Shown here in pieces: positions 8,832-12,807 of a stretch of 64,000 nucleotides of DNA (position 1 is the stretch's first letter; the number at the start of each line of letters is the position of its first letter). Where the stretch lies: NCBI GenBank assembly GCA_003020945.1, contig PXRU01000012.1, forward strand, positions 37,404 to 101,403, in the 5' to 3' direction. A program made the translations under genes and the position numbers. The notes beneath the pieces are model-generated. The model saw nothing but the letters and a program-made list of their open reading frames with translations. It made no database searches and was not told the DNA's origin. The DNA comes from Halobacteriales archaeon QS_6_71_20. Lineage in GTDB: Archaea > Halobacteriota > Halobacteria > Halobacteriales > Haloferacaceae.

Positions 8832-9548
8832 ATGGCAGGTCCCCGCACGCCCCTCCTCCGGCCGGACAGCTACTTCGGTGCCCACGACGGCTCCCCGCCG
8901 TTCGCGCACGCCGCGGCCGCCGTCGCCGTCGTCACGCTCGTCACCGCCGGCGGTCTGGCCGTCCTCCTCGGCGAGTTCGCCGCCGCCCTCGACGTGCCCG
9001 TGACGGTCGACAACCCCGCGTATCCGGGCGACCGGTTCTGCGAGGACTCGCCGCTCGACGACACCCCCTCCGGCTGTGGCGAGCCCGCGACCGTCGAGCG
9101 CGAGGCGGGCGCGCTCGTCGCCGAGGAGCTGTCGTGGCTTCCGCCGGCCGCCGTCGCGCTCGTGCCGCTGGTCTGGCTCCTCCAGGGCGCGGTCCTCCAC
9201 GCCGCGAGCGCGCTCGCCGACGGGAGCGGGTCGTTCGGCGACACGCTCTCGGTCGTCGCCTGGGGGATGGTCCCGGCGCTCGCGCGGCTGCTCGGGATCG
9301 GCGCGCTGGTGGTGTACCGGCTGCGGACGACGCCGCTGCCGGACAACCCCGAGAGCGCGATCGCGGCGCTGCAGGCGTCGATCGCGGGGGTCGAGGCGGT
9401 CGGGATCCTCGCGGCGGTCGCCGTCGCGCTGTGGGGCGGCGCGATCCGGTCGTACGGGCTGGCGGCGGCGCGGGACCACTCACTCGGGGAGGCCGCGGGC
9501 GTCGTCGCCGTGCTCACGCTCGTCGGGCTGGTGTTGGAGCTGGTCTGA
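8832..9548 (+). CDS. Yip1-domain membrane protein
   Basis: 238-residue integral membrane protein. Hydrophobic segments are visible at about 23-50, 102-125, 140-160, 180-200 and 215-238, with a soluble loop between the first two containing two cysteines ([15 protein letters not shown]) likely facing out. The first part, LLRPDSYF near the N-terminus followed by the helix, and the [19 protein letters not shown] segment resemble haloarchaeal YIP1-family proteins. Function unknown in archaea; probably membrane organisation or transport. Confidence 0.75.
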
Positions 9549-9610: not shown

Positions 9611-11704
9611 ATGATACTCTCGGACACCGACATCCTCGCGCGGCTCCGGGACGGCGACCTTGTCGTCGACCCGCTCGACGACGTGGACACGCAGGTCCAG
9701 CCCGCGAGCGTCGACCTCCGGCTGGGCTCTGAGTTCCTAGAGTTCCGGCGGACGAACATCCCCTGCATCCACCCGAACGACGCCCGCGAGGTCGACGAGT
9801 ACGTCGACGAGACGCACGTCCCCGAGGGCGACGACTTCATACTCCACCCGGGCGACTTCGTGCTCGGCACGACGAAGGAGACGGTCGCCATCCCCGACGA
9901 CCTCGTCGCCCACGTCGAGGGTCGCTCGTCGCTGGGGCGGCTCGCCATCGTGGTCCACGCATCACTCCCGGCTGACGAGGAGGTGTTCTTGTGGACTCCC
10001 GACGAGGGCTTCGGATTCTACGAGATCGGTGACATCGTCGAGAACGAACGGTCCGCGCGTGCCGTCTCGTTCGACCCCCGGACGCTACGGATCGGAACAC
10101 ATCGGGTGTCGGATCACATCCGGAACCCGACGAAGCGGATCTATCGGGTCACGCTCGAATCCGGCCGGGAGGTACTGGTCACGAAGGATCACAACCTGTT
10201 CACGTTGGACGAGGACGGCGGCGTAGCCCGGATCGAAAGCGAGAACGCCGAGGACGAACTCGTGATGGTCCCCGACAGGCTACCGGAGCCTGCGGCACCC
10301 GAGCGAGAACTCGATCTGATCGACCTGTTCGATCCAAACGAGGATGACATCACGGTGTACGCCGCCGACGGGCTCGGAGAAGTCGACTGGTCGGACGTGC
10401 CGAACGGCTCTCGACGCCACTACGAGGGGCGTGCGAGCGCACCGATGAGTGCGACCTGCCTCTCGTCGCTGCCGTCGACCGCGGAGATCGCGTTCAAGCA
10501 GAGCGGGGTCCGGCTTCCGCGGACCCTACCGATCACGACGGAACTGGCTTGGGCGCTCGGGTTCTACATCGCCGAGGGGTATCGACGGCGGAAACACATC
10601 GTCGTGGGTAATACGAACCGAACGTACCTCGAACGGTTCGCGTCGGTGTTCGAAGAGAGCGAGGTCGAGTGCTCGTGGTACGAGCGCGACAACGGGATGA
10701 CGATCCTCACCGTCTGCTCCGCGCTCTGGTCGAAGGTGTTCGACGTACTAGCCGGTTCGGGGTCGGAGAAATCCGTCCCGGATCGGGCATGGAACTGGTC
10801 GAACGAGACACTGGAGGCGCTCTATCAGGGATTGATCGACGGGGACGGCCACAGCCGGGAGAGACGGAACACGCTGTACACGGCCAACGAAGAACTCGCT
10901 AACCGCGCGATGTATCTCGGCGCGCGCCTCGGCCTCTTGAACTCCGTGTACCACCGCGAACGGGAGACCTACATCGAGATGAGCGACGTGACCGTCGAGA
11001 GCGAGGAGTGGGCGGTGGACTTCAGCGAGAACGGCTACAAGCGAGGGCAGTACGTCCCGACGCCGAGCGCACTACTCGAACGGTATCGTGCCCGCGCGAA
11101 CCTCACCATGGCCGAGGCGGCCGAGCACATGGGATACTCGTCACCGAGTAGCGTCTCGAACATCGAAAACGAGGAGTGGGAGTCGACCAAGCGTGAGACG
11201 CTTCGTCGGTTCCGTGACTGCTACCGCGATCACGGCGTCGACACGACGAGGCTCGATCAAGTGATCGATAGCGACGTTCGGTTCGAACGGGTCGGATCTG
11301 TCGAGGAGACCGACCGCGTGGAGCCGACGTACGATCTCGAAGTCCAGCCGAACGGTCGGACGATCGAGAACTTCATCGGCGGACGTGGAGGGGTCTTCCT
11401 GTCGAACACCGCCGGGCTCTGCGATCCGGGCTACCGGGGTCAGATCACGCTGGAGCTGTCGAACCTCGGCAACGCCCCCGTGGCGCTGTCGCCCGGGATG
11501 CGCATCTCCCAGCTCACGTTCACGGAGCTGTCGACGCCCGCGGACCGGCCGTACGGCGCCGAGCGGGGGTCGAAGTACCAGGGACAGACCGGACCGCAGG
11601 CGTCCCGGATCGGCGACGACCCCGAATTCGCAGCACGGGGCGCTGACGGAACGGTCGACGAAGCGGACGACGACCCCGACGGCGGCCGGGAGGAGGGGCC
11701 GTGA
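9611..11704 (+). CDS. dcd: dCTP deaminase containing an intein
   Basis: Host enzyme deaminates dCTP to dUTP for thymidylate synthesis; the trimer's active sites lie at subunit interfaces. The 697-residue precursor consists of an N-extein of 117 residues, a 482-residue intein and a C-extein of 98 residues. The N-extein ends with [16 protein letters not shown], the C-extein starts [17 protein letters not shown]; joined they give the uninterrupted family motif with its catalytic Ser/Arg and Glu. So the gene is inactive until splicing. The spliced protein is about 215 residues, slightly longer than usual because of an acidic tail ([14 protein letters not shown]). Stop codon overlaps the GTG start of the next gene. 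Confidence 0.95.
9962..11407 (+). mobile_element. Intein with LAGLIDADG homing endonuclease and HTH domain in dcd
   Basis: 482 residues from Ser1 to Asn482. Splicing blocks: A at the N-terminus ([12 protein letters not shown]), B at 69-80 ([12 protein letters not shown], with the TxxH Thr74 and His77), F at 453-472 ([15 protein letters not shown]) and G (GGVFLSN). The penultimate residue is Ser, not His, and the +1 extein residue is Thr. Homing endonuclease motifs are at 199-207 (LGFYIAEGY) and 288-297 ([10 protein letters not shown]). A helix-turn-helix-like segment lies at about 373-402 ([20 protein letters not shown]). Base composition is less GC-rich than the exteins, with more A/T-ending codons, suggesting acquisition by transfer. 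Confidence 0.93.
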
Positions 11705-12807
11705 GGTTCGTCGAGGAGGTCGTCGTCGAGGAGTTCCTCCCCACGGTGCGGTCGATGCTCGCCGAGGAGCTGCGCGACCGCGGCCTCACCCAGCGGGAGG
11801 TGGCGGACGCGCTCGGCATCAGCCAGTCGGCGGTGTCGAAGTACGCCCACGGCGACGTGGCGACGAACGACCGCGTCGCCGACGATCGCCGCGTCCGGGA
11901 GACGGTCGAGCGGGTCGCCGCGGGGCTGGCCTCGGGCGACGTGAGCCGGGTGGCCGCGCTGGTAGAGCTCGAGGTATTGGTCCGCCGGCTGGAGGCGGGC
12001 GATCTGCTCGCGGACCTCCACGAGACGGCGATGCCGGAGCTGGCGGACGCGGAGTACGACTTCGCGGTGCACGACCCCGACAGCCGGCTGCGCGACCGCG
12101 AGCGCGCCCGCTCGTCGCTGCGCCGGGGGCTGCGCACGCTCACCGCGGCGTCAGGGTTCGCGGGGCTGATCCCCAACGTCGGGTCGAACCTCGCGGAGTG
12201 CGTCCCCGACGCCGCCGACATCGAGGACGTGGCGGCCGTCCCCGGGCGGGTGTTCGACGTGAAGGGGACGGCGACAGTGCCGGGCGACCCCGAGTTCGGC
12301 GTCAGCGAGCACGTCGCGGGCGTGTTACTGTCGGCGCGGGCGGCCGGCGTCGACGCCCGCGCCGCGGTGAACGTCCGCTACGACCCCGACCTGGTGGCCG
12401 CGCTCGCGGACGCCGGCGTCGATGCCGTCGAGTTCGAGCCGCGCGACGGGAGCGAGACGCGTCGCGCCTCGAACGCGAGCGGGGAGCGGGGCGACGCCGA
12501 ACGGAGTAAGGCCTCGATGCGAACGGAGAGCGAGCGCGGTCGAGCACAGCGAGACCGCGACAGCGAACGGGAAGCGGAGCGACCCGTGAGCGGAGCAAGT
12601 CGTAAGCAAAGCGACCCGGGAGCGGGCGAGACGGACGCCGACACGGCCGACGACCCCGTGCGGGCGGCGCTCGCGGGCCGCGACCTCGGCGACGCAGACG
12701 TCGTCGCCGTCTACCAGACCGGCGGCGTCGGCGTCGAGCCCGTCCTCTACGTGCTCGGCCCGGACGCGCCGACGGTCGCGCGGGTCGTCCGCGACGCGCT
12801 GCTGTAG
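11701..12807 (+). CDS. HTH plus ThiN-domain protein (thiamine regulator type)
   Basis: 368-residue protein. An N-terminal helix-turn-helix ([23 protein letters not shown], seen at about 29-51) precedes a ThiN (thiamine-phosphate synthase-like) domain with [16 protein letters not shown] (about 149-164), the [12 protein letters not shown] region and the C-terminal [19 protein letters not shown]-ThiN proteins act in archaea as thiamine-responsive repressors (ThiR); that is knowledge of the family, not shown here. GTG at 11701 overlaps the dcd stop. Between about residues 248 and 318 the ThiN domain is split by a low-complexity Arg/Ser/Glu stretch whose DNA resembles the dispersed GAGCGA repeats. 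Confidence 0.85.

Follow-up and report, generated by a model that had tools for sequence, protein, structure and literature searches.

The dCTP deaminase gene (dcd) of Halobacteriales archaeon QS_6_71_20 carries a long in-frame insertion, and the question that it raises is whether this insertion is a working intein, given that the two histidines that usually assist asparagine cyclisation are absent from it. In the window (the whole stretch of 64,000 nucleotides analyzed, from contig PXRU01000012.1), translation showed that the dcd frame runs on the forward strand from the ATG at 9611 to the TGA at 11702–11704 and is open over 697 codons, with no stop. The insert (9962–11407) comprises exactly 482 codons in frame, from TCA (Ser1) to AAC (Asn482); it is placed between the VVHA and TAGLCDPGY motifs of dCTP deaminase and followed by the codon ACC (Thr) as residue +1. 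Both dCTP-deaminase halves were matched by TIGR02274 (210.5 bits, cut-off 92.8) and by Pfam DCD, and the insert itself by Pfam Intein_splicing (1.2e-16), NCBIfam intein_Nterm (1.4e-7) and Pfam LAGLIDADG_3 (3e-10). The sequence-only reading had placed an intein at these positions in an uninterrupted dcd frame, and the frame, the domain matches and the homologues confirmed it to the base. The computed masses are 77.8 kDa for the precursor, 54.7 kDa for the intein and 23.1 kDa for the joined dCTP deaminase of 215 residues. The G+C content of the intein is 62.8%, compared with 71.5% for the window (6 of 626 counting windows were lower).

When dcd is aligned with the mycobacterial dCTP deaminase 2qxx, residues 113 and 114 of the latter flank the junction, so that the insertion does interrupt the conserved core of the enzyme, as had been proposed; from the dCTP-deaminase literature, we take the loop at the junction to be the holder of catalytic residues. 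The splicing blocks and the two LAGLIDADG motifs that had been read from the sequence are also present. LAGLIDADG_3 gave two stretches at a lenient limit of E 1 and one at 0.001; support for the first motif (ALGFYIAEG) thus comes chiefly from inspection of the sequence and from the homologues. A helix-turn-helix at intein residues 370–421 (HTH_31) had escaped the earlier reading. The coordinates of these features are collected in the table below. A Yip1-domain membrane protein is encoded just 5' of dcd (8832–9548), and a gene for a helix-turn-helix and ThiN-domain (PF10120) protein at 11701–12807 shares 4 bases (GTGA) with dcd at the stop codon, which points to translational coupling of the two genes.

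Features of the interrupted dcd gene, with positions in the window
Feature	Position	Strand	Basis
dcd N-extein, 117 residues, ending in VVHA	9611..9961	+	TIGR02274 positions 1-113, Pfam DCD
Intein, 482 residues, Ser1-Asn482	9962..11407	+	45 distinct complete copies (this one counted), same junction
Block A, 13 residues, Ser1 nucleophile	9962..10000	+	Ser1 45/45
Block B, with T74 and H77	10163..10201	+	T74 and H77 45/45
LAGLIDADG motif 1, ALGFYIAEG, acidic E205	10553..10579	+	E 40/45, A 5/45; weak in Pfam
LAGLIDADG motif 2, 10 residues, acidic D295	10820..10849	+	D 43/45; LAGLIDADG_3
Helix-turn-helix domain, after the endonuclease and before the C-terminal splicing block	11069..11224	+	HTH_31 22/22; model helices
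Block F, with Asp458; Glu469 at the position of the usual His	11321..11374	+	alignment of 45 copies
Block G, RGGVFLSN, Ser481 in place of the penultimate His	11384..11407	+	Ser 45/45, Asn482 45/45
dcd C-extein, 98 residues from Thr+1 (TAGLCDPGY), stop codon included	11408..11704	+	TIGR02274, frame

The predicted structure of the insert is, with confidence, an intein fold. An AlphaFold model from a 22-row alignment reached a pLDDT of 90.1 and a pTM of 0.88, and when this model was compared with the PDB by Foldseek, the best match was 2cw7 (PI-PkoII; E 2.3e-27, TM 0.71 by query length), followed by 7qss, 7qsu and 7qst (VMA inteins), 1dq3 (PI-PfuI) and PI-SceI entries. PI-PkoII is thus the closest solved fold, with 19% identity in the fold alignment and a sequence-only match confined to precursor residues 150–245. 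In the helix-turn-helix region, the model places helices at residues 369–378, 383–389, 396–402 and 411–423. HTH_31 was found in 22/22 members of the alignment used for the model and for this check (22 of the 24 class-genome copies, L017 and L022 being left out). Among other inteins, it was absent from the single Pol II and the single RNA polymerase intein checked, and one helicase frame gave matches below the threshold; the domain is not claimed as unique to dcd inteins.

Full-length relatives (residues 1–482) were found in 24 of the 391 genomes of the class, the present one counted, all at E ≤ 5.3e-145, the next-best of the matches listed having an E-value of 7.5e-16. The insertion lies at the same dcd junction in 24/24. 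A dCTP-deaminase match above the cut-off was obtained in 388 of the 391 genomes (no clear dcd in G331, G345 and G376); judged by the best E-value per genome among the matches listed, the split dcd occurs in those 24 only, and a single interrupted dcd site was seen among these matches. When named genomes were scanned, 46 loci were recovered, of which 38 (L034–L071) are dcd inteins and eight are different inteins or weak matches. The named holders include Halonotius, Halovenus, Natronococcus, Halorhabdus, Halorubrum vacuolatum, Halegenticoccus, Halorutilus and others, and the junction is the same in the 35 loci that are complete. The window, 23 other class-genome loci and the 38 named loci made 62; dropping three incomplete ones left 59, and merging 14 identical inteins left 45 distinct copies. 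The dropped loci were L069 and L070, at contig ends, and L067, from a metagenome bin, in which the frame breaks within the intein after LLDGDG by sequencing error or as a pseudogene. Within the genus (11 genomes), the intein is carried by this genome and by G088, and in each of the other nine HA^TAG is read without interruption at the corresponding codons.

Three further loci deserve mention. L065, from a Methanonatronarchaeales bin, carries a dcd intein at 49% identity on a long branch in both trees, and it is the only holder in the named scan whose title places it elsewhere than in the haloarchaea (two others are titled simply uncultured archaeon). In one congener (G222), dcd without the intein scores equally at two places of the same contig, L081 (C1:5645–6196) and L091 (C1:2885714–2886265), perhaps because the contig ends overlap in the assembly.

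Ser1, T74, H77, D458, E469, N470, S481 and N482 were invariant in 45/45 distinct complete copies, and Thr+1 follows the intein in 24/24 class genomes and 35/35 complete named loci. In the consulted part of PMC4031507, class 1 inteins are defined by a nucleophilic Cys, Ser or Thr at residue 1. The dcd intein has Ser1 at this position, Asn482 followed by Thr+1 as the C-terminal Asn with Cys, Ser or Thr, and T74 and H77 as the assisting Thr and His of block B. Class 2 inteins (Ala1 with Cys+1) are ruled out by Ser1 and Thr+1; according to the same excerpts, KlbA-type members of that class share the Ser at G:6 and differ in Ala1 and Cys+1. Class 3 inteins (Cys at F:4, without a residue-1 nucleophile) are ruled out by Asp458 at F:4 and by Ser1, both in 45/45.

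The C-terminal end is non-standard: block F reads ENF, with Asp458 kept, and block G reads FLSN^T. The penultimate His at G:6 is replaced by Ser481 and the His at F:13 by Glu469, in 45/45 copies each, F:13 having been located visually by the xNF motif that dcd and PolB inteins have in common. Both histidines are usual assisting residues, F:13 being the less conserved, and both stand outside the class 1 definition. As described in the part of PMC4031507 at hand, they assist the cyclisation of the last Asn in the standard mechanism; they are dispensable in some inteins, and G:6 is a different residue in about 5% of the functional ones. Their absence may make this step, the third, slower in the dcd intein. 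In this genome, the dcd intein is detected by the NCBIfam N-terminal intein model; the C-terminal counterpart matched eight other sites there and none at the dcd intein.

These eight further matches in the genome (2.65 Mb) lie on C1, C2, C4, C8, C10, C17 and C26; two are in one C17 frame, and one is a PolB YGD^TDS intein on C10. They served as a control, read by eye, although they come from a profile that favours standard C-termini. One match was incomplete; of the other seven, six had His at G:6 and one (L139) had Ser, five had a residue other than His at F:13, and none combined the two losses. L139 (C4:24214–24282) ends in VSN^C, with a His near F:13 by eye. Glu at F:13 was also found in L137, L140 and two helicase inteins (L028 and L030), each of which has a G:6 His, so it is not special to dcd inteins; among the inteins compared here, it is the pair of Glu at F:13 and Ser at G:6, not the Glu alone, that sets dcd inteins apart. 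In a class-wide sample of best-scoring intein ends, which is biased to standard ends, 29/30 carried HNF and HN, the remaining end not being parsed.

Both acidic residues of the two-motif LAGLIDADG endonuclease, E205 and D295, are present in this copy. E205 is lost in 5/45 dcd inteins (L027, L055, L061, L064 and L068) and D295 in two of these five, L027 and L068, the endonuclease of L068 being so diverged that its alignment is unsure. In all five, the splicing residues S1, T74, H77, D458 and N482 stay intact, as expected if the host needs the spliced enzyme. The dN/dS of the endonuclease part was 0.05–0.21 over the 13 computable of 14 chosen pairs, which fits selection on the endonuclease. The endonuclease parts of L068 and L070 are strongly diverged (39–40% identity), the splicing blocks being kept in L068; this looks like the decay stage of a homing cycle.

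When the window was compared with the intein-bearing congener, the exteins were 97.3% identical (dS 0.35) and the inteins 73.2% identical (dS 1.16). The bootstrap difference in dS was 0.53–1.16, with 0/2000 replicates at or below zero, in a contrast that is one pair with an intein dS near saturation. The extein dS against the nine intein-free congeners was 0.33–0.52, similar to that of the intein-bearing one. The intein of the window is closer to that of L034, an uncultured archaeon (81%), though the L034 extein is only 82% identical. On the basis of synonymous divergence, the intein and its host gene appear to have had different histories. A conflict between the intein and extein trees is suggestive, the AU tests being marginal or not significant: with groups chosen after the trees had been seen, the window and L005 as a clade gave p = 0.0496 for the intein, and for the extein (44 of 45 rows, L041 being left out for masked letters upstream) neither the window with L034 (p = 0.0989) nor the window with L005 and L034 (p = 0.336) was rejected. 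Over the 14 chosen pairs, intein dS was below extein dS in nine and above it in four, with one not computable, so that there is no single direction.

Phage, plasmid and viral sequences were also searched. The plasmid search returned no dcd-intein relative, the IMG/VR pattern scan returned 46 stretches of which none was confirmed as one, and the phage search with the intein returned three weak Klebsiella-phage matches only (E 4e-3 to 5e-3). With the whole precursor as the query, 65 phage records were matched, and among the best 25 of these none had one place covering 80%. From these searches no vector is known, and one of these kinds is rejected on that footing. No close donor emerged either: other inteins, among those listed, were 21–37% identical to the dcd intein over partial matches. 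An origin from the PolB YGD^TDS intein is likewise rejected: the C-terminal ends are similar, but the PolB intein of this genome reached only 4.2e-8 against the dcd-intein profile, a much weaker match than those of the inteins in Pol II, helicase and RNA polymerase, and for this reason no donor is named.

The dependence of the host on splicing was assessed from its other DCD-family gene. This gene, on C25, scores as a dUTPase (218.5 bits, cut-off 130) and not as a dCTP deaminase (47.4 bits, cut-off 92.8), which rules it out as a backup; the genome (32 contigs, 93.9% complete) yielded no second dCTP deaminase, and the interrupted dcd is thus the only one recognised. Since the core is interrupted and no second enzyme was found, it is a sound inference that dCTP deamination here depends on splicing. 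With a dN/dS of 0.05 in the comparison with the intein-bearing congener, the dcd halves look to be under purifying selection. Essentiality of dcd is not claimed, as dTTP may come from other sources.

An insertion that has lost both histidines could have lost splicing with them, leaving dcd inactive, and the NCBIfam C-terminal model, which misses this intein, could be cited for it. Such a dead insertion is highly improbable: the same Glu and Ser pair recurs in 45/45 copies over many genera with all nucleophiles intact (which also rules out decay in this copy alone), the dcd halves seem to be selectively constrained, no other dCTP deaminase was found, and the histidines are not a universal need in the portion of PMC4031507 cited above. 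That the recurrence is itself an artefact of assembly or binning joining unrelated sequence, as a draft genome of 32 contigs might allow, is a negligible prospect, given an exact in-frame junction in 45 distinct copies, some in records titled complete genome or chromosome, e.g., Halovenus salina NZ_CP112972.

A post-translational switch, in which slow or salt- or stress-dependent splicing meters dCTP deaminase and thus the dTTP supply, would suit an intein that splits the conserved core of the sole dCTP deaminase recognised, with C-terminal blocks that could slow step 3, and conditional splicing has been reported for an archaeal RadA intein (PMC5790916, in the part consulted). We consider it quite improbable as well, since a needed regulatory role is at odds with the patchy presence (24/391) and the empty sites in 9/11 genus members, and since the divergence fits a mobile parasite. 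Most likely, as far as comparison of sequences can tell, the dcd intein is active and mobile, with a non-standard C-terminal step, and the insert is very probably a full-size LAGLIDADG intein of class 1 type belonging to the 'dtd' allele.

Under this preferred reading of an active, mobile intein, the 77.8-kDa precursor would be made, and Ser1 would attack in an N-O shift aided by T74 and H77. Thr+1 would then take over the N-extein, and Asn482 would cyclise and release the 54.7-kDa intein, leaving the 23.1-kDa dCTP deaminase with its VVHA–TAGLCDPGY loop restored. The freed intein would act as a homing endonuclease with an added helix-turn-helix, cutting empty dcd alleles, into which repair would copy the intein.

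The sequence-only reading had regarded dcd as a possibly poorly catalogued haloarchaeal intein location, and in the sense of an uncatalogued one this found no support. In the part of Soucy et al. (2014; PMC4071816) consulted, dCTP deaminase is a newly found intein host, 'dtd', with six Halobacteria sequences. The recurrence of the insertion in relatives stands, in 24/391 class genomes and 45 distinct copies; the claim to novelty is weakened by that report. The present intein shares the host gene and the class with 'dtd', being an insertion in a Halobacteria dCTP deaminase, and from the single interrupted site among the 391 genomes (matches listed) we infer that it is a member of that allele, here represented by 45 distinct copies against six. 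Another intein within dCTP deaminase, that of cyanophage CL131 (MG209611 gp069), excises in E. coli with a product of ∼25 kDa, and two more cases, in bacteria, are mentioned (PMC6293099, excerpts). It differs in Cys1, a VKN end and an HNH endonuclease, and its site, by reading, follows KSTYAR, 131 residues in, before CGII (the excerpts give residues 1–132 as the N-part); a common site is ruled out by the junction comparison. No biochemical study of a haloarchaeal dcd intein was found in the open-licence literature, subscription papers lying outside the scope.

A bolder proposal is that dcd inteins form a distinct Ser1/Thr+1 splicing subtype in which the two histidines have given way to a fixed Glu at F:13 and a fixed Ser at G:6 that carry out or time Asn cyclisation, perhaps adapted to high salt, with splicing setting the amount of dCTP deaminase; we regard this as doubtful. 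While dcd has been in print as a haloarchaeal intein host since 2014 (PMC4071816, consulted part), what is new here is the set of 45 distinct copies, the loss of both assisting histidines throughout, the splicing residues intact despite endonuclease decay, and the discordant divergence. The family-wide unusual C-terminal end is the main specialist interest, and dcd inteins offer a natural test of Asn cyclisation without the usual histidines, in a simply assayed enzyme.
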